NCBI GenBank assembly: GCA_027624955.1
Contig: JAQBTG010000040.1
Coordinates: 1 to 33,443, forward strand
Origin: Pseudomonadota bacterium
Lineage (GTDB): Bacteria > Pseudomonadota > Alphaproteobacteria > UBA828
DNA length: 33,443 nucleotides
Direction of reading: 5' to 3'
Under the pieces are notes generated by a model, which had not been told where the DNA came from, did not search any database, and saw nothing but the letters and a program-made list of their open reading frames with translations. Positions 8,641 to 25,881 of the stretch are shown in pieces (the first letter of the stretch is position 1; every line of letters starts with the position of its first letter). The position numbers and the translations under genes were made by a program.

Positions 8641-9813
8641 TCAGATCGGGTTGCGTTCAATGAGTTGACGCGCAATGACGATACGCTGAATTTCGTTCGT
8701 TCCTTCGCCAATCAGGAGAAGCGGTGCGTCGCGGAACATGCGCTCAATCGGAAATTCCTTCGAATAGCCGTAGCCGCCGTGGATTCGCATCGCGTCTAGC
8801 GCATTTTCCATCGCCGATTCGGTGGCGAACAGTTTGGCCATGCCGGCCTCCATATCGGCGCGCTCGCCGCGCTGATAGGCCTCCGCCGCGCGCTGGGTGA
8901 GAAGACGCGCCGCCTGGACACGCGTCGCCATGTCGGCGAGTTTGAGCTGAATTGCCTGATGCTCGCAGATCGGCTTGCCGAAGGTTTTGCGCATCTGGCT
9001 GTATTTAACCGATTCGTCGAGTGTTGCCTGGGCAATGCCAACACCACGCGCCGCTACGTTGATACGGCCAAGCTCAAGCCCACTCAGCACCTGTTTCAGG
9101 CCGAACCCCTCTTTGCCGCCGATCAGCCGGTCCGCGGCGACAAAATAATCTTCGAACACCAACTCGGCGGTATCGATTCCCTTGTAGCCAAGCTTTTCCA
9201 GCTTGCGGCTCACATTAAAACCGGGACCCTTCTCAGCGATAAAAAGACTCATGCCAGTGTGGCGCGGTTTGGCATTCGGGTCCGTCTTGGCGAGGAGCGC
9301 CACGCAGTTGCCATGTATCGAATTCGTGATCCACATTTTGTTGCCGTTCACCCGGTAGCCTTCGTTGCCCTCGCGCTTGGCGACCGTGCGGATGGCCTGC
9401 AAATCGGTGCCGGCGTCGGGCTCTGTGAGGGCGACTCCACCGCGTAACTCGCCGGTGGCGAAGCGCGGCAGGTAACTTTCTTTTTGCTCCTCTGTGCCAT
9501 GCCGCTCGACTGCGGCGGCCATGATAAGATGCGAGTTGATGATGCCGCTCACCGACATCCAGGCACCAGAGATTTTTTCGACGATCTTGGCGTAGGTCGT
9601 AGCTGGCAGCCCTAGGCCGCCATATTCAGCCGAAATCGTGGCGCCGAACAGGCCCAATTCCTTCATTTTTACGACGATTTCTTCGGGGTAAATATCCCCG
9701 GCCTCGAGTTCTGATACATACGGCCTGACGTCGCGTTCGAGAAAATGCTCGATCCCGTCCAAAATCATTTCTTCCTGTTCCCGGTCGATGGCCGGAATTG
9801 GCTCGCGCTGCAT
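8641..9813 (-). CDS. Acyl-CoA dehydrogenase
   Basis: A 390-residue FAD enzyme of full family length. The start MQREPIPAID is chosen because AAAAGGAG lies just upstream; the frame stays open another 39 codons but that stretch covers the promoter and a palindrome. Visible landmarks are LTEPDAGTDLQAIRT (FAD/substrate signature), MWITNS, LGYKGIDTAELVFEDYFV and ERMFRDAPLLLIGEGTNEIQ, where E370 is the expected catalytic base. This resembles the glutaryl-CoA/short-chain branch in general form, but no decarboxylating residue can be read with confidence. It leads an operon with the CaiB transferase and diverges from the ABC transporter operon. Confidence 0.93.
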   Translation of the reverse strand: MQREPIPAIDREQEEMILDGIEHFLERDVRPYVSELEAGDIYPEEIVVKMKELGLFGATISAEYGGLGLPATTYAKIVEKISGAWMSVSGIINSHLIMAAAVERHGTEEQKESYLPRFATGELRGGVALTEPDAGTDLQAIRTVAKREGNEGYRVNGNKMWITNSIHGNCVALLAKTDPNAKPRHTGMSLFIAEKGPGFNVSRKLEKLGYKGIDTAELVFEDYFVAADRLIGGKEGFGLKQVLSGLELGRINVAARGVGIAQATLDESVKYSQMRKTFGKPICEHQAIQLKLADMATRVQAARLLTQRAAEAYQRGERADMEAGMAKLFATESAMENALDAMRIHGGYGYSKEFPIERMFRDAPLLLIGEGTNEIQRIVIARQLIERNPI

Positions 9814-10214
9814 CGGTTGATTCTCCTTTTGCTTAGCCCCGTTGGAGGGCAAAAAGTATAATTTGTCCGGACAACGTAAAATATGCTTGTGGCGATGGCT
9901 TTGGGAAGGTATTTCAATTTCAGGCATCATTTGATCTTATGCAAATTGGCTAAGCTAACGCTGTTTGCATGAGTGACTGGAAAGCAACTGCACGGGAGAT
10001 CCAAGGGTTATTGACACCTGCTTACGAGTTCGAGAGAACGGCATTCGGGAGGACGCGCGAAAATTTGACTTGCCTCCCGGGTCCTAATCTAGAAACTTGT
10101 AAGGGCCTAACCGGAATGCCAAAAAAATCCGGGCGAAACGGCGAAACAGGGACGTCAGTCGTTTGATTCTTGGGTGTGACATAGACAAATTGGCGGAAAG
10201 GGCGATTTATTGCC
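9814..10214. other. Divergent regulatory region between acyl-CoA dehydrogenase and ABC operon
   Basis: About 400 bases without a credible gene. It holds the perfect palindrome at 9863-9874, a TATACT-like -10 for the leftward gene (9855-9860 on the complement), and an inverted repeat CGGGAGG/CCTCCCG (10046-10052 and 10073-10079). A TTGACT box at 10065-10070 followed by TAATCT is a weak rightward promoter candidate with a short spacer. The 65-codon frame at 9969-10166 lacks a ribosome site and looks spurious. Confidence 0.6.
9863..9874. promoter_or_regulatory. Perfect palindrome TTGTCCGGACAA (putative GntR-type operator)
   Basis: The 12-base sequence is its own reverse complement. It lies 49 bases before the acyl-CoA dehydrogenase start, with a TATACT-like -10 two bases beyond it on the leftward strand, and it may also influence the ABC operon. 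Near copies occur in two other divergent regions (21329-21340 and, more degenerate, 25772-25783). TTGTC/GACAA arms resemble operators of FadR/VanR-type GntR repressors; no such regulator is in the window. Confidence 0.65.
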
Positions 10215-11336
10215 ATGGCTGGTGATGGCGAAATTGTAATTAAGGGTATCAAGAAAGTGTTCGGACCCACGGTAGCGGTCCAGGACATTAACTTGACTAT
10301 TCCAGACGGCTGTTATTGCTGTCTGCTTGGGCCAAGCGGTTGCGGCAAGACGACGCTGTTGCGCATGATCGCCGGGCACGAAACGCCGTCAGAGGGCGAC
10401 ATTTCGATTGGTGGAACATCGGTGGTTAACTTGCCGACCGGTTCGCGCGGCACGTCGATGATGTTTCAGAGCTATGCTCTATTTCCGCATCTGAGCGTGT
10501 TGGACAATGTTGCATTCAGCTTAAAAATGAAGCGCGTCAATAAGACTGAGCGCCGCGAACAGGCATACGAAGTGCTGAAGCGCGTGCAGCTTGAACCGAT
10601 GGCCAACCGTATGCCGGAGCAATTATCTGGCGGGCAGCAGCAGCGCGTCGCGTTGGCCCGGTCCCTCATCACGAATCCAAAGGTTCTGTTGCTTGATGAG
10701 CCTCTCTCGGCGCTTGACGAGTATCTCCGCCTTCATATGCGGGCAGAGTTAAAGGCGATCCAGCAGGACCTCGGTATCTCGTTCATTCATGTGACGCACA
10801 CGCAGCCTGAGGCGCTCGCCATGGGCGACATGGTTGTGGTGATGGATACCGGACATATCGAACAAACCGGTACGGCGTTCGAAATATACGGTAAGCCGAA
10901 AACCACATATGTGGCTGAATTTATGGGTGGCTGGAACGTGGTCAGTGGGACCGTAGCCGAAATAAAAGATGGTGAAGCCACGGTCAAGGGCAGCGATGGT
11001 GTGGTGTATGGCGTCATCGCCAACGGTGAGGGCGTCGGCGCTGATATGAATATCGGCATCCGGCGCGACAAAATTCACCTCAAGCGCGATCATGCTGATG
11101 GTAAAAATTCGATAGCCGGTGTGGTGCATGCCATTGAGTATCAAGGCAATTGGGTCAAAGTAACGATCATCAAACCAAATGACGAGCGCTTGGTGGCGGT
11201 AATAGAGGATCATGAATTTTTCGAAAACCCAACAGTTGCGGGCGACCGTGTCCATGCCGTTTGGTCCGTAGCGGACGGCCGGCTGTTGGAAGAAGCAATG
11301 GGCAGTCAGAACCTAATCGGGGAGACCTTCGACTAG
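10215..11336 (+). CDS. ABC transporter ATP-binding protein (PotA-like)
   Basis: A 373-residue ATPase of the spermidine/putrescine (MOI/CUT1-like) type. Walker A GPSGCGKTT spans residues 39-47, the Q-loop is Q85, the signature LSGGQQQR starts at 137, Walker B VLLLDEP spans 157-163, the D-loop is SALDE and the switch His is H195. The last 120 residues form the TOBE-type regulatory domain common to PotA, with NIGIRRDKIHL and a YQGNWVKV motif. The Walker and signature motifs are intact, so it should be active. It heads the rightward operon with the binding protein and two permeases. Family knowledge points to import of polyamine-like or other small organic solutes; the ligand is unknown. Confidence 0.94.
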   Translation: MAGDGEIVIKGIKKVFGPTVAVQDINLTIPDGCYCCLLGPSGCGKTTLLRMIAGHETPSEGDISIGGTSVVNLPTGSRGTSMMFQSYALFPHLSVLDNVAFSLKMKRVNKTERREQAYEVLKRVQLEPMANRMPEQLSGGQQQRVALARSLITNPKVLLLDEPLSALDEYLRLHMRAELKAIQQDLGISFIHVTHTQPEALAMGDMVVVMDTGHIEQTGTAFEIYGKPKTTYVAEFMGGWNVVSGTVAEIKDGEATVKGSDGVVYGVIANGEGVGADMNIGIRRDKIHLKRDHADGKNSIAGVVHAIEYQGNWVKVTIIKPNDERLVAVIEDHEFFENPTVAGDRVHAVWSVADGRLLEEAMGSQNLIGETFD

Positions 11337-11438
11337 GACTTCCCCAGCGGATGAAGTGTCGCAGATTGGCTGGCCAGGATGTGGGGGAGCGTTAAAATAA
11401 ATGCGTAATCAGGCAGATGACAGGCGAGGAGTATGAAT

Positions 11439-12737
11439 ATGAGTAAGAACAAAAACGGCAAGACAGAAAAAGGTATTAGCCGCCGCTCAATACTCAAGGG
11501 TACAGCCGCCGTGGCTGGCCTTGCAGCAGGTACCGCGATCGGCGGTTTTCCAACAATTTGGGCACAGGACGATATCACAGTGCGCACGCTGGGCATGGCG
11601 GTTTCCAACATGCCGCAGTTGGAGGAGATGGCGAATGACGCCTTACCCTTCAAGGTCCAGCAGACGGCGGCCCAAATCCCAGACATCATGGCGCGTGGCA
11701 TCAACCAGCCGGAATCGGCTGATCTCTTTGAGCCGCCTTACATGCTCATGCGGGCCATGTGGCCGACTGGCAAGTTCCAGGCTTGGGACACCACAAAACT
11801 TCCGCAATGGGACAGTGTAGTTGATCTCTATAAGGAGCCCGGCAAGATTTGGCCGGACGCATGGTTCGGCGATGGTCAAAACCCAAGCTTTGTGGGTTAC
11901 ACCTCTGGCCAAGAGGCGAAGGACTTCGTCAAGGCCGGGTCGACCAAGTGGATCACCAACCATCCGGTGCTGCACAACGCCGATACTCTGGGCATTCGCC
12001 CTGACATCATCGGTCGTCCGGTCGATTCCTGGAAAGAACTGATCAATCCTGAGTTCGCCGGTCGTTCGGCCCTCGTTTCCTTCTCACAGATTGGCTTAAT
12101 GGACGCGGCGATGGCGTTCCAGGCCAATGGCGAGCGTGAGTACATCGATAAGGGCAACATGACACGTGAGGAAATCGATTTTTCGGTTGATCGCCTCATC
12201 GAACTTAAGAAGGAAGGCCACTGGCGTGTTCTGTGGTCAACGTTCAACGAGTCGGTCCAGCTCATGGTATCGGGCGAAGTCGTCATCCAATCCATGTGGT
12301 CGCCGGCGGTGACCGCAGTGCGCGAGCAAGGCGTACCATGCATTTATCAAGACCTTAAGGAAGGTTACCGTTCCTGGACTCTTGGCCACATGATGCCGAA
12401 ACATGTCGAAGGCAAAAAGCAGGGCGCGGTCTATGACTATGTGAGTTGGTACCATTCAGGTCCGGCCGGTGCGTTTTTTGCTCGTCAGGGCTACTACGTC
12501 GTGACACCGAAAAACACCCAAAAATATCTGCCGGCGCCGGAGTGGGATTTCTGGATGGAAGGCAAGCCGGCAACGGTTGATATTTACAGCCCGTTCGGCA
12601 AGCTCATGGAGAGTGCAGGCGCCGTACGCGATGGTGGCTCCTACAAGAACCGCATGGGCCGTGTTGCGGTATGGAACTCGGTTATGGATGAGAACGAATA
12701 TCTCACCGAGCGGTGGAACGAATTCATGGCCGCGTAA
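11439..12737 (+). CDS. Tat-exported extracellular substrate-binding protein (PotD-like)
   Basis: A 432-residue periplasmic binding protein. The second in-frame ATG (11439) is preferred because GAGGAG (11426-11431) is 7 bases before it; the first ATG at 11433 is too close. The N-terminus has a twin-arginine signal, SRRSILKG (residues 14-21), a hydrophobic stretch, and a likely cleavage after IWA. The body carries PotD-like features such as GYTSGQEA, the RPVDSWKELINPEFAGR element and a C-terminal EYLTERWNEF segment. Tat export suggests folding before secretion. A strong hairpin terminator immediately follows, expected to make this gene more abundant than the permeases. Confidence 0.9.
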   Translation: MSKNKNGKTEKGISRRSILKGTAAVAGLAAGTAIGGFPTIWAQDDITVRTLGMAVSNMPQLEEMANDALPFKVQQTAAQIPDIMARGINQPESADLFEPPYMLMRAMWPTGKFQAWDTTKLPQWDSVVDLYKEPGKIWPDAWFGDGQNPSFVGYTSGQEAKDFVKAGSTKWITNHPVLHNADTLGIRPDIIGRPVDSWKELINPEFAGRSALVSFSQIGLMDAAMAFQANGEREYIDKGNMTREEIDFSVDRLIELKKEGHWRVLWSTFNESVQLMVSGEVVIQSMWSPAVTAVREQGVPCIYQDLKEGYRSWTLGHMMPKHVEGKKQGAVYDYVSWYHSGPAGAFFARQGYYVVTPKNTQKYLPAPEWDFWMEGKPATVDIYSPFGKLMESAGAVRDGGSYKNRMGRVAVWNSVMDENEYLTERWNEFMAA

Positions 12738-12752
12738 GGTCAAGAATATTTG

Positions 12753-12788
12753 GATGCGGGGCGCCTCGGCGTCCCGCATCTCTTTTTT
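12753..12788 (+). terminator. Rho-independent terminator/attenuator between binding protein and permeases
   Basis: GATGCGGG pairs with CCCGCATC at 12753-12780, with CGCC/GGCG stacked inside, giving about 12-13 paired bases and a tiny loop. TCTTTTTT follows. Position after the binding protein and before the permease genes fits partial termination that tunes subunit ratios. Confidence 0.88.
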
Positions 12789-12820
12789 CATTTAGATAAT
12801 CGAATTTTAGGGACGCGTTT

Positions 12821-13690
12821 ATGGCGGGGTTGACAGCGATATTTAACCGCTATTCCACCATATTACAGATTTCACCTTTGGTGATCACGCTCACGCTCTT
12901 TCTCTTAGGGCCGGTGGTGGTCATCATCATCCTTAGTCTGTGGAAGTTCGACGGATTCTTGACGCTGGACGGCGTATGGACGCTGAGGAATTATGAGAGG
13001 ATTTTCACACGCTCCCTAACTGTCAGCAATTATCTGCAGACAGGAAAAATGTTGCTCATCACTTTGGGGGTAACGTTCGTTCTCGGATTTACCTTGGCCT
13101 ATTTCTTGGTTTTCGACCTGGTGAAACTCAGAACCAAGATGCTTCTCTTTTTGCTCTGTGTCGTGCCGTTTTGGACTTCAGCTGTTATCCGCACGGTTGC
13201 CTGGATTCCCTTTCTCGGTAAGGAAGGCATCATCAATAAGGCAGTTATGGGCCTTGGCCTTGCAAATCAGCCACTGGAATTTTTGCTGTTTTCCGAATTT
13301 GCGGTACTGCTCTCTTACATTCAGATTTTCACTCTCTTTATGATGGCGCCGCTGTTCAATGTGATGGCGCGAATAAATCGGGATTTGATTGAAGCTGCGC
13401 GTGATAATGGCGCCAATTCAATTCAGATACTGTTCAACATTATCTTGCCGTTGTGTAAGCCAGGCATCGCTATCGGCTCTATTTTTGTGATAGCGCTCGT
13501 CGCCAGCGACTTCACCGCCATTCGTATTCTGGGTGGGTCACAGGTCGGAACGGTGGCGGCTTCGATGGCTAACCAGATTTACAGCGCGCAATATCCGCCC
13601 GCCGCCGCGACCGCAATTATCCTGCTGCTGGCAGTCTTGCTCTTGGTCGGTGGAATTATGCGTGTGGTTGATGTGAGAAGGCAGCTTTAA
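12821..13690 (+). CDS. ABC transporter permease (PotB-like)
   Basis: A 289-residue inner-membrane protein with about six helices; the first hydrophobic segment is LVITLTLFLLGPVVVIIILSL. The cytoplasmic EAA coupling loop is visible as LIEAARDNGANSIQILFNIILPLCKPGI around residues 188-215, which contacts the ATPase. The sequence MARINRDL precedes it as in PotB-type permeases. The gene follows the terminator-like hairpin at 12753-12788 and precedes the second permease by two bases. It pairs with the 13693-14541 protein to form the transmembrane channel of the same importer. Confidence 0.92.
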   Translation: MAGLTAIFNRYSTILQISPLVITLTLFLLGPVVVIIILSLWKFDGFLTLDGVWTLRNYERIFTRSLTVSNYLQTGKMLLITLGVTFVLGFTLAYFLVFDLVKLRTKMLLFLLCVVPFWTSAVIRTVAWIPFLGKEGIINKAVMGLGLANQPLEFLLFSEFAVLLSYIQIFTLFMMAPLFNVMARINRDLIEAARDNGANSIQILFNIILPLCKPGIAIGSIFVIALVASDFTAIRILGGSQVGTVAASMANQIYSAQYPPAAATAIILLLAVLLLVGGIMRVVDVRRQL

Positions 13691-13692
13691 AT

Positions 13693-14541
13693 ATGCGGGA
13701 AGGTATCAAAAGAGCACCGGGGTATTGGCCGCGCGCCGCGCTGTTCTATATTTATTTGCTGTTTCTATACGGCCCGATCATCATCATCCTGCTTCTTTCT
13801 TTCCAGGCGGAAAATGCGTCGCTGTCATTTCCGATGCAGGGCTTTTCTTTATTTTACTTCGGTGAAATCTTCGATCCCCAATATATCGGCGATTTCCGCT
13901 GGCCGTTTGGCCGCTCGGTTATTCTCGGGCTCATTGTGATGGTGCTCACGATGGGCATCTCCTTCTTGGCCGGGCTGGCTTTCCGCAAAAATTTTAAGGG
14001 AAACATCCTTGTATTCTACATGGTGGTTGCCAGTCTGATCTGCCCTTCGATCCTCATTAGCCTCGGCATCGGGATTGGCTTCGCGAACCTCGGATTGACC
14101 AGTCAGTGGTGGTCGGGTGGCCTCGGCGCGCACCTCAGTTGGACCCTGCCGTTCGGCGTGTTGATCATGCTGGCCGTATTCAGCCGCCTCGACACCCGGC
14201 TCGAAGAAGCTGCCAGAGACCAAGGTGCCAGCCAATGGCAAACACTACGCAATGTCACCATTCCGATCACCTTGCCGGGCCTGATTGGCGTGGCATTGTT
14301 TGGCTTTACCCTGTCGTATGACGAATACCCGCGCATTTCAAACGTCGCAGGCGAGGACAATACTCTGCCCGTTGAGTTGGTGAACGCCTTGTCTTTGGCT
14401 GCAACGCCGACGATTTACGCGATTGGCACGATGACCACGTTGTTTTCGTTGACCATCATCTTCACCACTTTTATCGTCGTCTATATCATGGCAAAGCGCC
14501 GCCAAGGTCTTGGCTTGAAAAAAGCAACCGCAGACGAGTGA
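13693..14541 (+). CDS. ABC transporter permease (PotC-like)
   Basis: A 282-residue inner-membrane protein with about six helices. The coupling loop LEEAARDQGASQWQTLRNVTIPITLPGL lies around residues 173-200, and SYDEYPRISNVAGEDNTLPVEL follows as in PotC-type proteins (usually F-D-D or Y-D-E). It starts two bases after the stop of the partner permease, so translation is likely coupled. The C-terminal tail MAKRRQGLGLKKA is basic, as expected for the cytoplasmic side. It completes the PotABCD-like importer; the hydantoinase-type genes follow 136 bases downstream on the same strand. Confidence 0.92.
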   Translation: MREGIKRAPGYWPRAALFYIYLLFLYGPIIIILLLSFQAENASLSFPMQGFSLFYFGEIFDPQYIGDFRWPFGRSVILGLIVMVLTMGISFLAGLAFRKNFKGNILVFYMVVASLICPSILISLGIGIGFANLGLTSQWWSGGLGAHLSWTLPFGVLIMLAVFSRLDTRLEEAARDQGASQWQTLRNVTIPITLPGLIGVALFGFTLSYDEYPRISNVAGEDNTLPVELVNALSLAATPTIYAIGTMTTLFSLTIIFTTFIVVYIMAKRRQGLGLKKATADE

Positions 14542-14677
14542 AACAGTTTATCTCGTCCGACGACGGTAACAGGACCGGCGCTTCCTTGGTCCGGCCCGTA
14601 TCGTTTTTAATGAAAGACTCAGCGCGCCAACGCGTCTAGCCAGCCGCCTTGGCGGTATCCAGTAGGGAGATAAAGAA

Positions 14678-16732
14678 ATGAGTTACCGCTTGGGAGTGGA
14701 CGTAGGAGGCACGTTTACCGACCTCCTCCTGATCGACGAAAGTTCAGGAGAAACCTATCGCGCCAAGGTACCCTCCACGCCGGAAGATTCATCCATCGGT
14801 GTGTTGAACGGTATCGAGAAGGTGTGTGGCGACGCAAATGTGAATCCGGGTGAGATCACTCATGTGATGCACGGGACGACGGTTGCGACCAACACGATTC
14901 TTGAAGGCAAGGGCGCGCGCGTTGGTCTGGTGACAACTGAAGGCCATCGCCAGGTGTTGCAGATTGCACGTTCGTTCGTGCCCGGCATTCTTGCCGGCTG
15001 GATAATTTGGCCGAAGCCGGAGCCGCTGGCGCCGCTTGAAGCGACGATCGAAGCGATAGAGCGCCGCGATGCACGTGGCGGGCTGGTCAAAGCGCTCGAA
15101 GAAGATGATCTGCGTGTAAAGCTGGAAGGCCTAAAGAAAAGAGGCATTCAAGCTCTGACCGTATCGCTGATGAACGCTTACGCCAACGGAGAGACGGAAT
15201 CACGCATCCGCGAAATCGCCGAAGAAATTATGCCGGATGTCCCGGTTTCTATCTCCTCCGAAGTGCTGCCTGAGATGTACGAATATGAACGCGCCATTAC
15301 GACGGTCGCGAATTCCTACGTCGCACCGGTGGTGCGCGAATATTTGGCCAATCTCGCCAATGAGATGAAGAAGCGCAAGGTTGATGCGCATCTACATATC
15401 CTGCGCTCCGACGGCGGGCTGTCGTCTGTCGAGGCGTCGCGCAATTCACCGGTGAACGTGCTCATGAGCGGTCCGGCCGGCGGCGTCGCCGGCGCATTGT
15501 GGATCGCTAAGCAATCCGGATTTGAGGATTTGCTGACTCTCGACATGGGCGGCACATCGACGGACGTGGCCCTGATTCAAGGTGGAGTTCCGCGCAAGCG
15601 GCGTGAAACCACCATCGGTGACATCACCGTGCGCGCATCCTCGTTGGATGTGCGCACCGTTGGCGCCGGCGGCGGTTCTATCGCGCATGTTCCCGAACTC
15701 ACGAAAGCGCTTCGCGTTGGCCCAGAAAGCGCCGGCGCGAACCCGGGACCAGCATCCTATGGCCGCGGCGGCGACCGACCGACGGTGACGGACGCTAATG
15801 TCGTGCTGGGCTATCTTCCGCCGCAACTGATTGGCGGCGAAATGCAACTTGATGTCGCGGCAGCGAGGACTGCGGTGCAGACCATTGCCGACGGGCTCGG
15901 GCTCGACCTCATGACGGCGGCAGCCGGCATGATCGACATCGTCAACGAGAATATATTTGGCGCGCTGCGCTTGGTTTCAGTGCAGCAGGGTTTTGATCCA
16001 CGTGATTTCGCGCTTATCGCCTTTGGCGGCGCCGGTCCGCTTCACGCCAACGCACTGGGCAAATTGATGGGCGCCTGGCCGGTGATCATTCCGCCTTCAC
16101 CGGGTGTGCTGTGCGCCTATGGCGATGCGACCACACGGGTGACCGACGAGGCGTCGCGCAGTGTCGTCAGGCAATTCTCCGAAATCACCCAGGAGAGTGT
16201 CGGCGAGATTCTCAAGGAACTGGAAGAGCGCGCCCACACTGAATTGGACGCCGAGGGCGTGCCGCGGACAGAGCAATCAGTGATATATGAAGTTGATCTC
16301 CGTTACCACGGCCAGGGCCTACAATTGCCGGTGACCTTCAGCTCTGAGGAATTCGAGAAAGAGGGATTGGACTTTCTGCGCCGTAAATTCGACGATATGC
16401 ATACTCAATTGTTTACATTTGCCCTCGATGCCGAGCATGAGATTGTGACATTGCGCGCCGTCGTTCAGGGCGCCGAAACATTTGTCGCTGCAGGTAAATT
16501 GCCGGAAGGTGGCGAAGACCCGTCGGAAGCTGTTGTTGCCACGGCTCAAGTTTACATGGACAATCGCGAGCAGGAAGCCAAGATTTATGACCGTTCGAAG
16601 CTCAAATCAGGCAATCGAATTGTCGGGCCCGCGATCGTCACCGAAATGGATTCGACGACCTTGATCTTGTCGGACCATGCCGGAGACGTCGACCAGTTCG
16701 GCACCATCGTTATTCGCCCGATCAGCGCCTAG
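14678..16732 (+). CDS. Hydantoinase/5-oxoprolinase family subunit A (HyuA-like)
   Basis: A 684-residue ATP-dependent amidohydrolase subunit with an AGGGAG ribosome site. The N-terminal Hydantoinase_A domain begins GVDVGGTFTD (residues 6-15), the actin-like phosphate-binding loop. A second nucleotide loop is LDMGGTSTDVAL from residue 288. MSGPAGGVAGALW and VGAGGGSIAH are further family hallmarks. Partnered with the B subunit that follows, such enzymes open N-methylhydantoin, 5-oxoproline, or related lactam/imide rings using ATP; acetone carboxylase is a distant relative but normally has a third small subunit, absent here. The gene lies downstream of the ABC importer, which suggests that its substrate is imported. 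Confidence 0.93.
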   Translation: MSYRLGVDVGGTFTDLLLIDESSGETYRAKVPSTPEDSSIGVLNGIEKVCGDANVNPGEITHVMHGTTVATNTILEGKGARVGLVTTEGHRQVLQIARSFVPGILAGWIIWPKPEPLAPLEATIEAIERRDARGGLVKALEEDDLRVKLEGLKKRGIQALTVSLMNAYANGETESRIREIAEEIMPDVPVSISSEVLPEMYEYERAITTVANSYVAPVVREYLANLANEMKKRKVDAHLHILRSDGGLSSVEASRNSPVNVLMSGPAGGVAGALWIAKQSGFEDLLTLDMGGTSTDVALIQGGVPRKRRETTIGDITVRASSLDVRTVGAGGGSIAHVPELTKALRVGPESAGANPGPASYGRGGDRPTVTDANVVLGYLPPQLIGGEMQLDVAAARTAVQTIADGLGLDLMTAAAGMIDIVNENIFGALRLVSVQQGFDPRDFALIAFGGAGPLHANALGKLMGAWPVIIPPSPGVLCAYGDATTRVTDEASRSVVRQFSEITQESVGEILKELEERAHTELDAEGVPRTEQSVIYEVDLRYHGQGLQLPVTFSSEEFEKEGLDFLRRKFDDMHTQLFTFALDAEHEIVTLRAVVQGAETFVAAGKLPEGGEDPSEAVVATAQVYMDNREQEAKIYDRSKLKSGNRIVGPAIVTEMDSTTLILSDHAGDVDQFGTIVIRPISA

Positions 16733-16742
16733 GAGAATCGCC

Positions 16743-18671: not shown

Positions 18672-18679
18672 AATTCACC

Positions 18680-18696
18680 TGCCGCACCTAGCGGCA
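18680..18696. repeat. Small inverted repeat downstream of hyuB
   Basis: TGCCGC, loop ACCTA, GCGGCA. It lies just before the main terminator and is followed by ACAAAAGG; it may be an auxiliary stem that protects or pauses the transcript. Confidence 0.4.
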
Positions 18697-18703
18697 CAAA
18701 AGG

Positions 18704-18735
18704 AAAGGCGGCGCCCACAAGCGCCGCCTTTTTTT
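18704..18735 (+). terminator. Rho-independent terminator after hyuB
   Basis: AAAGGCGGCGC pairs perfectly with GCGCCGCCTTT (11 base pairs, six-base loop) and runs into a seven-T tract. It lies between the hyuB stop and the stop of the converging lyase gene, so it can also terminate leftward transcripts, though the leftward T tract is weaker. Confidence 0.92.
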
Positions 18736-18756
18736 GGCAATAATTCGAAAGAGGAT

Positions 18757-19644
18757 TTACTCGGCGGCTTCGTCGCGCGCCCATTTGCGTTCGAACGCCC
18801 AAACATCCTCGAAGCCCATAACACGGTGCATTTCTGTAAGTTCCATCATCGGCACATCGACGGTTGTGCTGGTGCCCTCCTTCAGGAGGGTGCCATAGGC
18901 GGATTCGAGCGCTGCGCCGGCCACCAGCATGCCAAGGCCCGGGAAGATGGCGATACTAAATCCCATCTTCTGCAATTGATCGGCCGACAGGATTGGTGTC
19001 TTGCCTTTATCCGCCATATTGGCCAATACCGGTTTGTCGAACGCGCCGCCCACTTGGCGCAGTTCCTCGATTGATTCCGGTGATTCGACAAAAATCACGT
19101 CGGCGCCGGCATCGGCGAAAGCGCGGCCACGGCGGATCGCTTCGTCCAATCCGAGCGCAGTGCGTGAATCGGTACGGGCAATAATCAAAAAGTTCGGATC
19201 TTGGCGCGCTTCAACGGCGACCTGGATTTTTTCCACCATATCTTCGATGGGCACGACGCGGCGGTCGGGAGTATGGCCGCATTTCTTCGGCGATTCCTGG
19301 TCTTCCATTTGAATCGCGGCGCATCCCGCGTCTTCATAGCCCCTAACCGTATGGTGTACGTTCAACAGGCCGCCAAAACCAGTATCACCGTCGCAAATCA
19401 AGGGCGCTCTGGTGCCGTTCGCAATCATGCGCACACGGCTGACCACTTCGCCGAAGCTGGCGATGCCCGCGTCGGGCACGCCGAGATGCGAGGCCGCCAC
19501 ACCGTAGCCAGTCATATAGAGAGCGTTGAAGGCCATCCGGTCAGCGATGCGGGCCGAAATCATGTCATAGACGCCAGGCGCGGTGATGAATTCACCTCTC
19601 TTAATGGTATCGGCTAGTTTGGCGCGCTTTTCAGATGCGTTCAC
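18757..19644 (-). CDS. Isocitrate lyase/PEP mutase superfamily lyase
   Basis: A 295-residue TIM-barrel lyase started by GTG with AGAGGA upstream. The Mg-binding pair is in ICDGDTGFGG (D85, D87), MEDQ follows, and the catalytic KKCGH motif is at 120-124 with C122. The retained Cys points to a C-C lyase (2-methylisocitrate lyase, 2,3-dimethylmalate lyase) rather than a PEP mutase. The C-terminal part, VDVPMMELTEMHRVMGFEDVW, matches the oxaloacetate-hydrolase/methylisocitrate-lyase layout. Such enzymes typically split a 2-hydroxy diacid into an alpha-keto acid and a smaller carboxylate. It is the last gene of an operon with the amidase (42-base gap). The exact substrate is unknown. Confidence 0.9.
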   Translation of the reverse strand: MNASEKRAKLADTIKRGEFITAPGVYDMISARIADRMAFNALYMTGYGVAASHLGVPDAGIASFGEVVSRVRMIANGTRAPLICDGDTGFGGLLNVHHTVRGYEDAGCAAIQMEDQESPKKCGHTPDRRVVPIEDMVEKIQVAVEARQDPNFLIIARTDSRTALGLDEAIRRGRAFADAGADVIFVESPESIEELRQVGGAFDKPVLANMADKGKTPILSADQLQKMGFSIAIFPGLGMLVAGAALESAYGTLLKEGTSTTVDVPMMELTEMHRVMGFEDVWAFERKWARDEAAE

Positions 19645-19686
19645 GATGCGGGTCCTCTGTCATATGTCTTAATAATACGAAAATTC

Positions 19687-21105
19687 TCAGGCGCTCATTT
19701 CAGGCACCCGCGTGTGCCAGTCGGTCATGCCTTGGTAAGCGTGACCCATTTGGAACAGCTGCGCTTCCGAGAACGGTCGGCCCATGAGTTGGAATCCGGC
19801 TGGCAGGCCGTTAGCTGTAAAGCCGCAAGGCACTGCCAGGGCCGGGATGCCGAGATAATTGTTGGAGCGCGTTGTCCAGCTTAGGCCGGCAACCATTCCG
19901 GCCATGCCTTGACCCGCCGCCATGTCGGTGTCGGCTAGGCTCGGCACAGGCATGGAAAGCCCCGGCGTGTGCAACACATCGACCTTGGAGAACACCGTCT
20001 CGGTGAAGTCGCGCAACAGCTTTGCCCGCATATCAAGGGCACGCAGATATTTTGCCGCTGGAATATAGATCCCGGGTTCATAACGGCTACGCACTTGTGC
20101 TTGGTAGTCTTCGGGGCGCTCGCGCAGCCATTTTTCGTGAATGGCGACCGCTTCGGCGACGAACACGATATTGGATAAATGTGTCGGCACATGCATGTCG
20201 GGTACGTCCACTTCAACGATCTCGACACCGAGGTCGCGGAACACGGCAAGACAGTCCTGCTGTAATTTTTCAACTTCTGGCGTGATCACGTCATAGTAAT
20301 AATTCTTTGGCACGCCAAGTCGGAGCCCCTTCACCGGCGCTTTCAGACGGGTTTCGTAATCCGGTACCACGCGGCGACTGGTCGTCGGGTCGAGCGCATC
20401 ATGCCCGGCCATGATCCCAGTGAGGCGGGCGTTGTCGTGCACGGTGCGGGTGAGCGCGCCGACCGTATCCATGGTATGGGAGAGCGTCATTAGGCCGTAG
20501 CGGCTGACTAGGCCGTTGGTAGGTTTCAGCCCGACTAGACCGTTGATGCTGGAAGGAATGCGGATCGAGCCGCCGGTATCGGAGCCGAGGCCGCCATAGA
20601 CAATACGCGCCGCGACCGCGGAACCGGTGCCGCTGGAAGAGCCGCCGGTAATATATTCCGGATTCCACGGATTGTGGTTGTCGCCCCAATGCTCGTTGTG
20701 CCCGGTCGGGCCGGTAGCAAATTCTGCCATGTTGAGGCCGCCGAGATAGATGCTGCCGGCGTCCAATAGCCGCTTCAGCGCCGTGCTATCATGATCGGCG
20801 ACGTAATCCTTGCGGATTTTGGAGCCGCAGGTGCTGCGTTTGCCGGCTCGGTAATACATGTCCTTATGGGCCAATGGCACGCCATGGAGGGGCCCGCGCA
20901 ACTCGCCCCGCGCCAGCTCGGCATCGGCCCGCTTGGCATCCGCCAGCGCTTCATCACCAAGCAATTGGATGAAGCAGTTGAGCACCGGCTGCAGCGCTTC
21001 GGCGCGTGCGATGCTGGCCCGCACAACTTCGACCGAAGAAATATCCTTGCGTCGGATCGCCTCTGCGGTCTCAACCAGCGACGCGTTCAGAATTTCAGCG
21101 CTCAT
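19687..21105 (-). CDS. Amidase signature family hydrolase (AtzE/GatA-like)
   Basis: A 472-residue amidase. The Ser-cisSer-Lys triad is readable: K81 in GVPLAHKD, S156 in GGSSSGTGS, and S180 in GSDTGGSIRIP, with the 24-residue spacing seen in GatA and malonamidase. The C-terminus (PAGFQLMGRPFSEAQLFQMGHAYQ) is typical of the family. Four bases upstream ends a 66-residue AtzG-like gene, so the pair resembles AtzG/AtzE, in which the small subunit is needed for a stable 1-carboxybiurea hydrolase. GatA function is unlikely because gatB and a standard gatC are absent here. The natural substrate is probably a small amide or carbamoyl compound. Confidence 0.92.
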   Translation of the reverse strand: MSAEILNASLVETAEAIRRKDISSVEVVRASIARAEALQPVLNCFIQLLGDEALADAKRADAELARGELRGPLHGVPLAHKDMYYRAGKRSTCGSKIRKDYVADHDSTALKRLLDAGSIYLGGLNMAEFATGPTGHNEHWGDNHNPWNPEYITGGSSSGTGSAVAARIVYGGLGSDTGGSIRIPSSINGLVGLKPTNGLVSRYGLMTLSHTMDTVGALTRTVHDNARLTGIMAGHDALDPTTSRRVVPDYETRLKAPVKGLRLGVPKNYYYDVITPEVEKLQQDCLAVFRDLGVEIVEVDVPDMHVPTHLSNIVFVAEAVAIHEKWLRERPEDYQAQVRSRYEPGIYIPAAKYLRALDMRAKLLRDFTETVFSKVDVLHTPGLSMPVPSLADTDMAAGQGMAGMVAGLSWTTRSNNYLGIPALAVPCGFTANGLPAGFQLMGRPFSEAQLFQMGHAYQGMTDWHTRVPEMSA

Positions 21106-21109
21106 TTCC

Positions 21110-21310
21110 TTAATCCCCAGCCAGTTCGTCGAGCGCGCGTGCCATATTCGAGGGCTCAGCTTCGAGCGCGAGCCCCTCCGATGCCTGATCGAGCGCGCCG
21201 ATCAGCACGTTCAGCGTGGCCGCCAGTTCTTCGGCGCGCGCTGGCGCCGGCAATGTGCCGCCAAATTCGCGCGCCTGAGCGAGAACGAGTTCTTTAGTGA
21301 TCTGCGCCAT
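21110..21310 (-). CDS. AtzG-like (DUF4089/GatC-like) small amidase partner
   Basis: A 66-residue protein that begins MAQITKEL; AGGAAAA precedes the ATG at a good distance, so the longer frame up to 21340 is rejected. It has two predicted helices separated by a short loop (EELAATLNVLIGALDQASEGL), then LEAEPSNMARALDEL, which resembles the E-P-x-x-x-F/A tail of AtzG-type proteins. Such proteins act like GatC, wrapping and stabilising the amidase. It ends four bases before the amidase start, an arrangement typical of translational coupling. Assignment rests on size, location and weak similarity, since the sequence is short. Confidence 0.7.
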   Translation of the reverse strand: MAQITKELVLAQAREFGGTLPAPARAEELAATLNVLIGALDQASEGLALEAEPSNMARALDELAGD

Positions 21311-21406
21311 CGGATTTTCCTGTGATATTGGTCCGGACAACCTAGCATTTTATATACAGCAGTTCGATATCCGTGCGATAAAAAGAGCGCGCGAAACAGC
21401 AGCAAT
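21311..21406. promoter_or_regulatory. Divergent promoter region with TGGTCCGGACAA palindrome
   Basis: A 96-base gap between the leftward AtzG-like/amidase unit and the rightward MmgE/YrdC unit. A near-palindrome at 21329-21340 matches the 9863 site in 11 of 12 positions. On the leftward strand TATATAAAAT (21347-21356) lies just upstream of it, so a bound repressor would cover the transcription start. No clear rightward -10 is seen. Confidence 0.6.
21329..21340. promoter_or_regulatory. Putative operator TGGTCCGGACAA
   Basis: One base short of the perfect palindrome at 9863-9874. It is located between the leftward -10-like TATATAAAAT and the AtzG-like start, a standard repressor position. Confidence 0.6.
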
Positions 21407-22828
21407 ATGAGGATAACAGCCGGCGTGACGAAAAGCCCTCCGGATCGTGACCTAACCGCCGTGCTGGCCGAGAATTTGGCCGCGCTAAACTACGAAACGC
21501 TTGGTGCTGCAGATCGTACACAGATCAAACGCCTGGTTCTGGATCATGTCGGCGTGTGCCGGCGTGGCGCCGAGCAGCCGTGGTGCTTGGCTCTCAGGGA
21601 GTGGGCCGGGCGTTATGTCGGCAGCGGCAACAGCGTGGTTTTCGGCACCACACTCCGCACAGCGCCAAATGTAGCGGCCCTGGTTAACGCCAGCGCCGCA
21701 CATGGCATGGAGCTGGATGATACCCATGACAGCTCGGTCAGCCATCCCGGCGCTGTGGTCATCGCGACGGCACTGGCGCTCGGCATCCACCATCAGGCTA
21801 GCGGCGGCGAAATCATGGCCGCTATTGCCGCCGGATATGAGGCGATGGGTAGGGCTGGGCGCGCTGTCGGTGCTTCCGATGTGATCGAATTTGGCTATCA
21901 CCCGACGGCCCTTTTCGGCGGCTTCGGCGCCGCCGCAACAGCGGGTAAACTGCTCGGCCTCGACGGGCGTGGCATCGCTTCCGCTTGGGGCCTGATGCTT
22001 TCCATGGCCGGCGGCTCGATGCAATTTTCCGAAGATCCGCTCGGCACTACGGTCAAGCGGCTGCATGGCGGCTACGGCGCGCATAACGGCATTCTCGCGG
22101 CGGAATTCGCGGCCCTCGGCATCGCCGGTCCATCGCGGGCGCTTGACGGCCGTTACGGCTTGGGCCGCTTGTTCGGCCAACATCCTAACTTCGAGGAACT
22201 TGCTAGACCGGGTGGCGCACCGCTCGAAATTCACCGCATCAGCATGAAGCCTTATCCATGCTGTCGGCTGTTTCATTCCACCATCGATGCGCTCCGGGAA
22301 GTGACGGAAAATTTCTCCCTCGATCCCGGCCACATTTCGGAAATTCGTGTTGGCGGGCCGGCCATCATGTGTACCCAACACATGCTGCGCCGCCCGGTAT
22401 CGGTGATGGCGGCACAATACAGTCTGCCCTTTTCGCTGGCGGCGAGCCTGATATTTGGCCCTGATGTGTATGAGGCTTACGGCGAGGATAAGTTCGACGA
22501 CGTGCGAATTCTTAGTCTGGCCGACAAAGTCGAAGCGGTCGAAGACGGAGAGATGGAGGCCGCGTTTCCGGAGCATTTTGGCAGTTGGGTAGAACTGCGA
22601 ACGCAGAGTGGGGAAACCCGGCGTGCCGATATGCTCGACAGCATTGGCACGCCCGCCCGGCCAATGGACGCTGCGGCGCTGCAAGACAAGATCGCCGGCC
22701 TGTTGGCCTCTCTAAAAGCGGTGCCCGAAATTGGTGAAATCACCGGCGCGGTAGAAACATTAGAGCAGGAAGGCGGGCCCGCGCGCCTGGTTTCTCTGTT
22801 TGCGATGGCTGAACACAAGGCGGTATGA
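21407..22828 (+). CDS. MmgE/PrpD-family protein (second copy)
   Basis: A 473-residue protein of the 2-methylcitrate dehydratase/aconitate decarboxylase family. Landmarks are the LVLDHVGVCRRG helix, AAHGMELDDTHDSSVSHPG near residue 100, YHPTALFGGFGAAATAGKLLGL near residue 164, and SMKPYPCCRLFHSTIDALRE near 280. It differs widely from the family member at 5978-7402, so the two are not recent duplicates. The stop overlaps the ribosome site of the following YrdC-domain gene (7-base gap). A long antisense frame covers most of it but is a shadow. Likely role: dehydration or decarboxylation of a hydroxy or unsaturated dicarboxylate in the pathway. Confidence 0.9.
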   Translation: MRITAGVTKSPPDRDLTAVLAENLAALNYETLGAADRTQIKRLVLDHVGVCRRGAEQPWCLALREWAGRYVGSGNSVVFGTTLRTAPNVAALVNASAAHGMELDDTHDSSVSHPGAVVIATALALGIHHQASGGEIMAAIAAGYEAMGRAGRAVGASDVIEFGYHPTALFGGFGAAATAGKLLGLDGRGIASAWGLMLSMAGGSMQFSEDPLGTTVKRLHGGYGAHNGILAAEFAALGIAGPSRALDGRYGLGRLFGQHPNFEELARPGGAPLEIHRISMKPYPCCRLFHSTIDALREVTENFSLDPGHISEIRVGGPAIMCTQHMLRRPVSVMAAQYSLPFSLAASLIFGPDVYEAYGEDKFDDVRILSLADKVEAVEDGEMEAAFPEHFGSWVELRTQSGETRRADMLDSIGTPARPMDAAALQDKIAGLLASLKAVPEIGEITGAVETLEQEGGPARLVSLFAMAEHKAV

Positions 22829-22835
22829 GGAAGAA

Positions 22836-23543
22836 ATGCAAGCATATGACATGAAAAAGGACGCCGCGCGCGTTGTTGATGCGGTTGAAGCGGGCGGTGT
22901 CGCCATCGTGCCACTCGATGTGGCGTACGCCATCACCGGCAATAGCGAGGGAGCGATGCGGCGGATCTTCACCGCCAAAAATCGTAGCTTCGAAAAGCCG
23001 AGCGGAATGCTGAGCAACTGGCAACTGTTCAACGATATTCAGATCTGCGGCGAGCGTGAACGTGCGGTTGTGAATTGCATCATCAATGAACATGACCTGC
23101 CGATGTCGACAGTGGCACCGTTCCACGCCGACCATCCGCTGTTTACCAATGTCGCGCCGTTCGTGATCGGCCATTCCTCAAAGGCTGGCACCATCGATAT
23201 GCTGCTGAACGCGGGCGAGTTGCATAACGAGCTGACCGGCCAGGCCTATGTGCGCGGGGTGCCGTTGTTCGGCTCCTCGGCCAATACGTCGCTACAGGGC
23301 AGCAAGTACCGCCTCGAGGATATCGAAGCGCCGGTGCGCGAAGCCGCCGATATCGCGCTCGATCACGGCACCAGCAAATACGCCAACGATGAGGGCCGCT
23401 CCAGCTCGATTATCGATCTACGCGATTTCAAGACCATCCGCATCGGCGTCAACTATGAACGCATCGCGGAAATCCTGTTGCAGAAATTCGATATCGACCT
23501 TCAAGCCAATGGTATGGCGGGAGAGCGCGCCGCCATGGGCTGA
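22836..23543 (+). CDS. YrdC/Sua5-domain protein (divergent TsaC-like)
   Basis: A 235-residue protein with the TsaC/Sua5 fold. Visible motifs: GGVAIVPLDVAY (residues 20-31; canonical P-T-D-T-Y here reads P-L-D-V-A-Y), K-x-R-x-x-x-K-P at K48, R50, K54-P55, PLFGSSANTS (143-152) and SSSIIDLR (189-196). Standard TsaC makes threonylcarbamoyl-AMP for tRNA; HypF and TobZ use the same fold to make carbamoyl-AMP. The altered first motif and the catabolic setting argue against a housekeeping tRNA role. The start is chosen for GAGG five bases before ATG; it follows the MmgE/PrpD stop by seven bases. Fold assignment is firm; the reaction is unknown. Confidence 0.82.
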   Translation: MQAYDMKKDAARVVDAVEAGGVAIVPLDVAYAITGNSEGAMRRIFTAKNRSFEKPSGMLSNWQLFNDIQICGERERAVVNCIINEHDLPMSTVAPFHADHPLFTNVAPFVIGHSSKAGTIDMLLNAGELHNELTGQAYVRGVPLFGSSANTSLQGSKYRLEDIEAPVREAADIALDHGTSKYANDEGRSSSIIDLRDFKTIRIGVNYERIAEILLQKFDIDLQANGMAGERAAMG

Positions 23544-23562
23544 ATAGCCCGATAGTGCACGC

Positions 23563-24495
23563 CTATTCCGCCGCTGCGCTCGCTTTGGCCTGACGTCGCC
23601 GCTCCTGGCTTTCGATCCAGGTGAGAACGCGCCCGCCGAGCTTCAGTTCGGTGTGTTTTTCTGCCACGGCCACCGCTTTGCGGAGGCCACTCATATCGAT
23701 ACCGGTGTTGTAGCCGGAGCGCTCGAGCATGTGCACGACGTCTTCTGTCGCCACATTTCCGGTGGCGCCCGGTGCAAACGGGCAGCCTCCCAAGCCGCCA
23801 ATCGCGGTATCGAACTTGCGCACGCCGCACTCGAGCGCTGCCCAGGTGTTGGCCAGCGCCAAACCGCGGGTATCGTGGAAATGCCCAGCCAGACGCTCAG
23901 CGCCGTAGCGATTGGCGAGAGTCTCGAAGATGAATTTTACTTGTGCCGGGTCGCCCGAACCGATGGTATCCGCAACCGCCACTTCGGCGGCACCGGCTTC
24001 GAACATGCGCGCCGCCAGATCGAACACTACTTCCGGCGCGACATCGCCCTCAAATGGGCAGCCGACCGCGGTGGAGATATAGGAGCGCGGCTTAATGCCT
24101 TCTCGGACCGCGCGCTTGATGACGGCAATATTGACTTCGGTCGCGCGTTCCAGCGACATGCCGATATTTTTCTGATTCATTTCTTCCGTCGAGCCCAGCA
24201 CCAGTGCGATTGTTTTGGCGCCCGCAGCGACGGCGCGCTCATAGCCTTTCTCATTCGGCACCAGCGCTTCGAACGTGACGCCCTTATCTAGCGGTAGACG
24301 GTTATACAGCTCAGCCGCATCGGCCATTTGCGGCACCGCCTTCGGCGAGACAAAGCTCGTGACCTCGACCGAACGAACGCCCGCAGCTATGAGGGCATCC
24401 AGCATTTCGAGCTTGCCCTCGACTGGCACATGGCGCGGCTGATTTTGCAGGCCGTCGCGCAGGCCGACTTCGTTGACGATCACTTTATCGCTCAT
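23563..24495 (-). CDS. mvaB: Hydroxymethylglutaryl-CoA lyase-like enzyme
   Basis: A 310-residue DRE-TIM metallolyase. The catalytic opening EVGLRDGLQN has R13 and D14, metal ligands are in GHFHDT (H205, H207), and the signature GLGGCPFAPGATGN carries the catalytic Cys at 238. All match HMG-CoA lyase, which splits HMG-CoA to acetyl-CoA and acetoacetate; close relatives cleave citramalyl-CoA or similar 3-hydroxyacyl-CoAs. AGGAA precedes the ATG. It directly follows a CaiB/BaiF transferase on the same strand (33-base gap), a pairing that suggests the transferase makes the CoA ester that this lyase cleaves. The symbol reflects the family; substrate not certain. Confidence 0.9.
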   Translation of the reverse strand: MSDKVIVNEVGLRDGLQNQPRHVPVEGKLEMLDALIAAGVRSVEVTSFVSPKAVPQMADAAELYNRLPLDKGVTFEALVPNEKGYERAVAAGAKTIALVLGSTEEMNQKNIGMSLERATEVNIAVIKRAVREGIKPRSYISTAVGCPFEGDVAPEVVFDLAARMFEAGAAEVAVADTIGSGDPAQVKFIFETLANRYGAERLAGHFHDTRGLALANTWAALECGVRKFDTAIGGLGGCPFAPGATGNVATEDVVHMLERSGYNTGIDMSGLRKAVAVAEKHTELKLGGRVLTWIESQERRRQAKASAAAE

Positions 24496-24528
24496 TAATT
24501 CATTCCTTTCCGCTCTTTGGGGCCACGC

Positions 24529-25728
24529 CTAGCCGACCGTGCCGGCGGCCCGCAATGTCGCTATATCGCTTTCGCTTTTGCCCAGCAGATCGCGCAACAC
24601 GTTGTCCGTATGCTGGCCGAGAAGCGGTGGCGGCGCATATGTATCCTCGTCTGAGGCGCTCATCTTAATCGGGTTGCCCGTCATTTGCACTTCCCCGCCC
24701 TCGGGGTGGTTCACCGTCACCACCATATTGCGCGCCCGCACCTGGACGTCGTTCAAAGCATGTTCAAGGTCGTTGACCGGAGCGCACGGGATCTTGACCT
24801 CGGCCAGTTTCTCCAACCAAAAATCGCAGCTCTCCTGCTTAAGGCGGGCGCTGATTTTTTCCTCAATGAAGTCCTTGGCCGCGAGGCGTCCCGGCTGCAG
24901 GTCGAAGGCTTCGTCCTGCAATTCGTTAATCCCCATCATGTTGCGAAACCGCATCCAAGTCTCATTGGTGATAATAGCAATGATCAGCCACAAATCTTTG
25001 GTCGGATAGGTGTTGTAAGGCACATGTACGAAATGGGAATTTCCGATGGCGCTCGGCACATCGCCCGATAGGAAATACATGGTCGCCATATAGTTAATTA
25101 GAGAAATTTGGCAATCCTGCATGGAGATGTCGATATGCTGACCGCGCCCAGTGCGCTCGCGTGCATGGAGTGCTGCGAGCATGCCGACCGCGCTGAACAT
25201 GCCGCCGCCGAGATCGCCAATCGGAATGCCTGCCCGCGTCGGCGGGGCGCCGGCCTGCCCGGTGATCGACATGCCGCCGCCATAACCTTGCGCCACCATG
25301 TCGAAAGCAGGGCGCTGATAGGCCGGGCCGGATTCGCCAAACCCGGTGACGCTGCATGTGATGATGCGCTCGTTCACCTTCGAGAGCACGCCGTAATCAA
25401 TCTTGAGCCGCGCCGTCACGCCGGGGCTAAAATTGCTGAGCACGATATCGGCCTTTTTCACCAATTCGTAGAACAGCGCCAGCCCGTCTTCACTCTTCAA
25501 ATCGATGCAGACGCTTTCCTTGTTGCGATTTAGCGTCAGGAAATAGGCGCCCATGCCGTTCAGTGAATTTTTCGGGTCTTTGGCCAATAATCCGCGCGTT
25601 AGTTCACCTTTGCCCGGCGGCTCGACTTTGATCGTCCGCGCCCCGAGATCAGCCAGCAGCATACCGCCGAACGGTCCTGACAGCATATGCGTGAGGTCGA
25701 TAACGATCAGGTCGGACAATGCTTTCAT
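24529..25728 (-). CDS. CaiB/BaiF-family (class III) CoA-transferase (second copy)
   Basis: A 399-residue enzyme. The start MKALSDLIVI is preferred because AGGAG lies nine bases upstream; the earlier in-frame ATG at 25737 touches the ribosome site. THMLSGPFGGMLLADLGARTIKVE (residues 13-36) is the family opening, D172 in PIGDLGGG aligns with the catalytic Asp of formyl-CoA transferase, and GRGQHIDISMQD near 194 is conserved. Partnered with the HMG-CoA-lyase-like gene, it may resemble the succinyl-CoA:dicarboxylate transferases (SUGCT type) that activate hydroxymethylglutarate, glutarate or citramalate. It differs from the CaiB at 7399-8631, so each likely serves a different acid. Confidence 0.92.
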   Translation of the reverse strand: MKALSDLIVIDLTHMLSGPFGGMLLADLGARTIKVEPPGKGELTRGLLAKDPKNSLNGMGAYFLTLNRNKESVCIDLKSEDGLALFYELVKKADIVLSNFSPGVTARLKIDYGVLSKVNERIITCSVTGFGESGPAYQRPAFDMVAQGYGGGMSITGQAGAPPTRAGIPIGDLGGGMFSAVGMLAALHARERTGRGQHIDISMQDCQISLINYMATMYFLSGDVPSAIGNSHFVHVPYNTYPTKDLWLIIAIITNETWMRFRNMMGINELQDEAFDLQPGRLAAKDFIEEKISARLKQESCDFWLEKLAEVKIPCAPVNDLEHALNDVQVRARNMVVTVNHPEGGEVQMTGNPIKMSASDEDTYAPPPLLGQHTDNVLRDLLGKSESDIATLRAAGTVG

Positions 25729-25764
25729 TCTGCGCATCTCCTGTGGGCGTGCGGTGTTTTCATG

Positions 25765-25792
25765 TTGACAAAGGTACGGACAAATCTATGGA
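25765..25792 (+). promoter_or_regulatory. Promoter candidate with embedded operator-like sequence
   Basis: A consensus -35 TTGACA (25765-25770) and TATGGA (25787-25792) are separated by 16 bases. The spacer contains AGGTACGGACAA (25772-25783), whose right arm equals that of the 9863 palindrome while the left arm is degenerate. It would drive the rightward hydrolase gene and could be controlled together with the leftward CaiB unit. Confidence 0.5.
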
Positions 25793-25881
25793 ATAAGCCC
25801 ATTGTGGTCAATGTGGGTGGCCGCTGCGGGCTGTCATTCTGGCAGGCCGAGTTGGCAATGCAGCGAAAGGGAGTGCACGTC

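Follow-up and report, generated by a model that had tools for sequence, protein, structure and literature searches.

Three copies, one exact and two imperfect, of a 12-base palindrome, TTGTCCGGACAA, lie in a 33,443-nucleotide contig (JAQBTG010000040.1 of assembly GCA_027624955.1; hereafter the window) from an alphaproteobacterium of the UBA828 lineage, and they raise the question of whether the catabolic genes around them are under common control and, if so, by which regulator. An initial annotation, made from the window alone, had proposed one regulon and a FadR/VanR-type GntR repressor encoded elsewhere. The results below support a common operator joining the window units and point to a different GntR type. 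We put at about 80% the probability that all three palindromes are operators of one regulon bound by a HutC-type GntR repressor with a UTRA domain, encoded on another contig (C48) of the same genome.

A mismatch scan of the window located TTGTCCGGACAA as a perfect palindrome at 9863-9874 (site 1), with one mismatch at 21329-21340 (TGGTCCGGACAA, site 2) and with three mismatches at 25772-25783 (AGGTACGGACAA, site 3). With gene starts set from sequence (acyl-CoA dehydrogenase, ACAD, 9813 and ABC ATPase 10215; 66-residue protein 21310 and MmgE 21407; CaiB 25728 and isochorismatase 25882), all three sites are intergenic and lie between divergent genes; the longest mechanical open reading frames, 8641-9930 and 25687-26517, would overrun sites 1 and 3. 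Beyond these sites the window holds no match with zero or one mismatch, and the sole two-mismatch match, at 22169, is within the MmgE gene. Thus, the exact copy, the 11-of-12 copy, their placement and the lack of other close intergenic copies are all as initially described. Up to three mismatches, the window contains 12 matches versus 12.34 expected, so that the half-conserved site 3 is by itself at chance level and is credible only because of its conservation.

To assess conservation, orthologous promoters were aligned within the genus, i.e. between the own genome (G000; 3,579,816 bases in 84 contigs, the window being C40) and five other genomes (G001-G005). The operator of the ACAD promoter is kept in G000, G001, G002, G003 and G005, and that of the amidase unit is identical in all five genomes aligned (G000, G002, G003, G004 and G005). 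In the CaiB/isochorismatase divergon, TTGACAAAGGTACGGACAAATCTATGGAATA is invariant in the four genomes aligned (G000, G003, G004 and G005), and 24 of 24 bases around site 3 are identical in G003, G004 and G005, indicating that site 3 is conserved despite its poor palindrome. All three window sites are therefore kept in the orthologous promoters of four to five genus genomes, and the intergenic comparison that had been suggested as a check favours the regulon. In G012, which belongs to another genus of the same family, the ACAD/ABC-HyuAB cluster is syntenic and the exact operator lies in the same gap; the only GntR match of that genome is an ortholog of the C48 protein (47% identity). In G003, ACAD is preceded by a tandem pair of exact operators spaced 24 bp apart (L146, 9652 and 9676).

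The two strong window sites (9863 and 21329) share an AT-rich flank with sites on contigs C13 and C37, and from these four sites an extended pattern was derived (single-strand reading TTGTCCGGACNNATWW). It occurs at 4 places in the own genome, at 2, 2, 4, 2 and 2 in G001-G005, and 7 times in 7 of 54 genomes outside the genus, while its reversed control has no match among the 60 genomes searched; with up to one mismatch, the six genus genomes give 33 matches versus 3 control matches. This and the conservation of the sites bear out the proposal that the units form one regulon. Further units carry the site. On C13 (29577) a HyuA-HyuB-thiolase unit has it, as it does in G001-G004 (with one mismatch in G002); on C17, an Asp/Glu/hydantoin racemase gene and a divergent HyuA gene share ATGTTCGGACAA (ATGTCCGGACAA in G001-G004); and on C1 (37945), the site before a pair of CN-hydrolases is exact in G000, G001 and G003, G002 and G004 having no CN-hydrolase ortholog at the cut-off. 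At least three HyuA copies of the own genome (C40, C13 and C17) adjoin an operator, out of 28 Hydantoinase_A (PF01968) matches in 3.58 Mb; across the genus there are 13-28 per genome. Among other places with up to one mismatch, three inside long frames (C10, C22:53106 and C23), one at a start codon (C6:32132) and one in a coding frame (C8:2955) were taken as chance. At C22:44337 (L026, 4338), TTGTCCTGACAA lies some 350 bases before the genes for a Bmp-type binding protein and an ABC ATPase.

Which regulator would bind these sites? The operator, TTGT-CCGG-ACAA, has 4 nucleotides between GT and AC. According to an excerpt of PMC4494728, sites of the HutC subfamily mostly have 4 and those of the FadR subfamily 3, or 2 in some groups; the spacing thus argues for a HutC/UTRA rather than a FadR/FCD type. 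The own genome has eight GntR matches, six with FCD, and none of the eight carries a site of up to two mismatches in its scanned flanks, which extend some 1.5 kb or as far as the contig reaches. Seven served as ortholog queries, the eighth (C8:321) being a partial domain; the GntR matches compared, among the matches listed, were 11 of 12 in G001, 7 of 8 in G002 and 5 of 6 in G004. For two queries, each of the other five genus genomes holds a close ortholog; one of the two is an FCD protein and the other the C48 protein. The FCD gene (L031, upstream of 6841) has in its own promoter TTGGTNNNACCAA in five of six genomes and TTGGCCTGACCAA in G005; the 4-nucleotide spacing together with this different box led us to reject a FadR/VanR regulator, and the TTGGTNNNACCAA box probably marks a separate, autoregulated system. 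This gene adjoins a glutamine-synthetase-like gene. The C48 protein, 79-88% identical to its orthologs in the other five genomes, has an N-terminal GntR winged-helix domain (PF00392, 64.5 bits; cut-off 27) and a C-terminal UTRA domain (PF07702, 43 bits; cut-off 23.8). Its gene is divergent to a CaiB gene and precedes HpcH/HpaI lyase, SnoaL and isochorismatase genes. Of the initial proposal, a GntR regulator encoded outside the window thus appears likely, while the FadR/VanR assignment is not supported, its spacing being 2-3 rather than 4 nucleotides.

The C48 protein is the best-supported candidate, and the site also accompanies some of its orthologs outside the genus. A search of 385 genomes of the class matched the protein at E<=1e-40 in 20 genomes, of which 18 lie outside the genus. 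We assembled 23 non-genus orthologs: 19 of the 22 rows of this search (two rows of the genus and one that is the same gene as L121 were left out), three from an earlier GntR listing, and L121, which entered as an extended-motif match. Within 330 bases (300 upstream and the first 30 of the gene), TTGTCCGGACAA with up to two mismatches precedes 7 of the 23 orthologs. Of 26 other GntR genes submitted, 24 were placed, and none of these has it. Upstream of the orthologs TTGTCCGGACAA is the top-ranked of the 4096 possible 12-mer palindromes, the mean per palindrome being 0.38 and other palindromes of the same composition reaching at most 2. The sites, their conservation and this association with HutC orthologs in other families are thus features of the sequences themselves; binding by the C48 protein is what we infer from them.

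The site often adjoins ACAD, CaiB, MmgE or HpcH genes. Ten wider loci and L151 were examined, most of them chosen for a known site or a HutC-type gene, and 10 of these 11 carry a site of up to two mismatches. In these other genera and families it separates the HutC-type gene from CaiB in G008 (L290), from MmgE in G050 and G180 (L291 and L292), from ACAD-CaiB in G180 and G167 (L293 and L295), and from a weakly similar ACAD/CaiB/MmgE set in G344. G035 has an exact site ahead of HpcH and ACAD (L296) and a 1-mismatch site ahead of a weak MmgE match. G054 lacks an ortholog at the cut-off; one site there precedes ACAD, and a second is some 450 bases ahead of the reading frame of another GntR+UTRA gene at the same locus. 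HutC and ACAD orthologs are at most 5 kb apart in 6 of the 11 non-genus genomes holding both (G078, G088, G167, G180, G225 and G391). Four ACAD loci were added to the ortholog comparison; L151 and L295 have the site, and L293 and L296 lack it within 300 bases of ACAD. At L293 (6724; G180), a perfect variant palindrome, TTGTTCGAACAA, precedes a HutC-type paralog of 34% identity that is divergent from ACAD-CaiB-CaiB.

Several observations weigh against assigning all three sites to one regulon under the C48 protein. In the genus genomes, neither the C48 gene nor its C48 neighbours have a recognisable copy of the site, and the regulator search covered the GntR family, by the GntR model. Outside the genus, 16 of the 23 orthologs have no site in the 330 bases scanned, and the wider locus L298 (G115) holds a HutC ortholog but no site; the seven orthologs with a site belong to three families, three being from one genus and two from another, and thus represent fewer than seven independent events. 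Four of the six linked HutC-ACAD pairs (G078, G088, G225 and G391) have no site of up to two mismatches before either gene in the stretches scanned. Among the best 28 ACAD orthologs outside the genus, three carry the site, all from genus g40 and without a close HutC ortholog, so that there is no class-wide ACAD rule; none of the five from genomes with a HutC ortholog carries it, and among the 4096 palindromes the motif comes only about 130th in these 28 promoters. Amidase relatives, of which 17 of 79 loci were scanned, keep it (with one mismatch) in the three nearest (L038-L040, 85-90% identity); for the twelve that are 48-65% identical along most of their length (L041-L051 and L114), as for the partial match L115, up to 700 bases show nothing below 4 mismatches, and L100 (40% identity) has one 3-mismatch match. 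A plasmid search gave only amidases below 60% identity and was not used. The CN-hydrolase site is degenerate in G005, and the strong C37 site (20996), in the gap separating a cyclase/AAA gene from an ammonium transporter, is not conserved in G002, the only congener with that gene, and was left out of the regulon. Finally, in the own genome the bare 12-mer occurs at 9 places with up to one mismatch versus 6 for the reversed control, and at 120 versus 105 with up to two; the latter scan, which had also been suggested as a check, is near chance and, taken alone, would have led us wrongly to dismiss the regulon.

How far do these points favour other explanations? That a chance palindrome falls in three gaps is hardly credible: the near-chance counts in window and genome are what it would predict, but the sites are kept in three orthologous promoters where much of the neighbouring intergenic DNA has diverged, and further units also carry them. 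A larger, though still minor, share of probability goes to the sites being genuine operators of one regulon bound by a different protein (an FCD-type GntR, the TetR encoded in the window, or another). The missing copy in the promoter of the genus HutC-type gene, the five further FCD genes of the genome and a scan of the GntR family only, with its eighth match partial, are in its favour; against it stand the presence of the site before some HutC orthologs (7 of 23) and before none of the 24 other GntR genes, and the other boxes of the one FCD gene recovered from all six genomes of the genus. The TetR gene (2582-3163) is present in the syntenic stretches of G001, G002 and G003 but was not found at 60% identity in that of G005 (86% complete), where both operators remain, making it an unlikely regulator. 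More serious, if still rather unlikely, is the view that only 9863 and 21329 are regulatory and that 25772 is a conserved -35/-10 promoter resembling an operator. Site 3 has three mismatches, its flanking TTGACA and TATGGA would be conserved anyway, and its copies in G003-G005 score 9.0 versus 25.8-28.6 for the sites used to train the matrix. Its 16-base spacer, however, is invariant in four of four genomes, which is unusual for a functionless spacer, and GT and CGGACAA are kept.

Under the favoured reading, in which the C48 protein controls all three sites, a dimeric repressor would bind each site as an inverted repeat with GT-N4-AC spacing. A -10-like stretch lies directly upstream of operators 1 and 2, which would thus lie over the probable start region in the promoters of ACAD and of the amidase unit, and operator 3 would fill the spacer between TTGACA and TATGGA of the CaiB/isochorismatase divergon. 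From these positions, binding should block RNA polymerase; as read from the sequence, this placement is repressor geometry. By analogy with the HutC subfamily, repression would be followed by induction: a metabolite bound by the UTRA domain would release the repressor, and the amide- and CoA-breakdown gene set would switch on together, including the HyuAB-thiolase unit, the racemase/HyuA divergon and the CN-hydrolase pair elsewhere in the genome.

This regulon is new in detail and known in kind. The C48 protein resembles HutC/UTRA repressors (NagR/YvoA, DasR, HutC and PhnF) in its GntR winged helix and UTRA domain, and its proposed sites resemble theirs in GT-N4-AC. NagR/YvoA is one of the relatives of solved structure whose alignment spans both domains (2wv0 and 4u0v, residues 13-239); an excerpt of the NagR structure paper (PMC4333415) uses the palindrome GTGGTCTAGACCAC. 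Unlike in these relatives, the operator arms are different and the targets are CoA-transferase, ACAD, MmgE and amidase/hydantoinase-type genes, and the protein falls below the NCBIfam equivalog cut-offs for HutC (the best, 89.9 versus 220 bits), PhnF (82.4 versus 156.8), PhnR (63.2 versus 296.75) and TreR (62.9 versus 211.95). FadR/FCD repressors share the GntR-type GT...AC inverted repeat, but with the shorter spacing given above and FCD in place of UTRA. As for the enzymes, the branched short-chain dicarboxylate operon PA0878-PA0883 of Pseudomonas aeruginosa has, according to an excerpt of PMC9875883, the same kinds: an ACAD with methylsuccinyl-CoA dehydrogenase activity (PA0879), MmgE/PrpD (PA0881), the CoA-transferase Ict and the lyase Ccl. 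Compared with what that excerpt describes, the genes here form several units, with HyuAB, amidase and isochorismatase genes among them; the C48-cluster HpcH protein is below the RipC cut-off (193.6 versus 375). In the published literature, outside subscription papers and RegPrecise, we found the exact 12-mer TTGTCCGGACAA only in an unrelated context, nothing linking GTCCGGAC with a palindromic operator and regulator, and nothing joining a UTRA/GntR repressor with itaconate and MmgE.

The hydantoinase-type, amidase and racemase partners suggest, speculatively, a nitrogen-containing precursor. More broadly, we tentatively propose, at somewhat less than even odds, a previously undescribed HutC-type regulator-operator pair of at least three alphaproteobacterial families, with ACAD, CaiB, MmgE/PrpD and HpcH as recurrent neighbours, which in this genus has brought scattered hydantoinase, amidase, racemase and CN-hydrolase operons under its control, so that the breakdown of cyclic amides or imides and of the branched dicarboxylates resulting from them would be induced as one programme. 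Uncharacterised catabolic genes of an uncultured lineage, whose named near relatives are metagenome-assembled genomes, would thereby be united in a single testable regulon that has a defined operator and a candidate regulator. An operator common to some HyuA genes and to CoA-transferase, ACAD and MmgE genes narrows the possible HyuA substrates, and the ligand of the UTRA domain would be a pointer to the substrate itself. The features discussed are collected in Table 1.

Table 1. Genes, putative operators and promoter-like elements of the window, with the candidate regulator gene.
Feature	Position	Strand	Remarks
CaiB-type CoA-transferase, unit 1	7399..8631	-	PF02515
ACAD, unit 1	8641..9813	-	Pfam PF02771, PF02770, PF00441; start set from sequence
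Operator 1 (putative)	9863..9874	-	TTGTCCGGACAA; 50-61 bases upstream of ACAD start 9813
Conserved -10-like stretch CATATTTTAC	9876..9885	-	directly upstream of operator 1; alignment of 5 genus genomes; presumed promoter role
Second conserved block GAAATACCTTCCCAAAG	9899..9915	-	upstream of ACAD promoter; invariant in 5/5 aligned genus genomes
ABC ATPase, solute-binding protein, two permeases, HyuA, HyuB	10215..18671	+	divergent from unit 1
66-residue protein, amidase, PEP-mutase/PrpB-like lyase, unit 2	18757..21310	-	PF01425, PF13714
Operator 2 (putative)	21329..21340	-	TTGTCCGGACCA on minus strand; 19-30 bases upstream of the 66-residue protein preceding the amidase
Conserved -10-like stretch TATATAAAATGCTA	21343..21356	-	upstream of operator 2; alignment; presumed promoter role
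MmgE/PrpD and Sua5/YrdC-like genes	21407..23543	+	PF03972, PF01300; divergent from unit 2
CaiB-type CoA-transferase and HMG-CoA-lyase-like gene, unit 3	23563..25728	-	PF02515, PF00682; NF004283 over cut-off
Operator 3 (putative)	25772..25783	+	AGGTACGGACAA, imperfect; between TTGACA (25765-25770) and TATGGA (25787-25792)
Isochorismatase-family hydrolase	25882..26517	+	PF00857; divergent from unit 3
Candidate HutC-type GntR+UTRA protein	G000:C48:21826-22575		

The 66-residue protein (21110-21310), initially described as AtzG-like, matches nothing in Pfam or NCBIfam at E<=0.001, and of seven window enzymes compared with NCBIfam only the HMG-CoA-lyase-like one is over a cut-off. In G001-G003, the block GAAATACCTTCCCAAAG (9899-9915) belongs to a GGAA...TTCC inverted repeat, and it may perhaps serve a second regulator.

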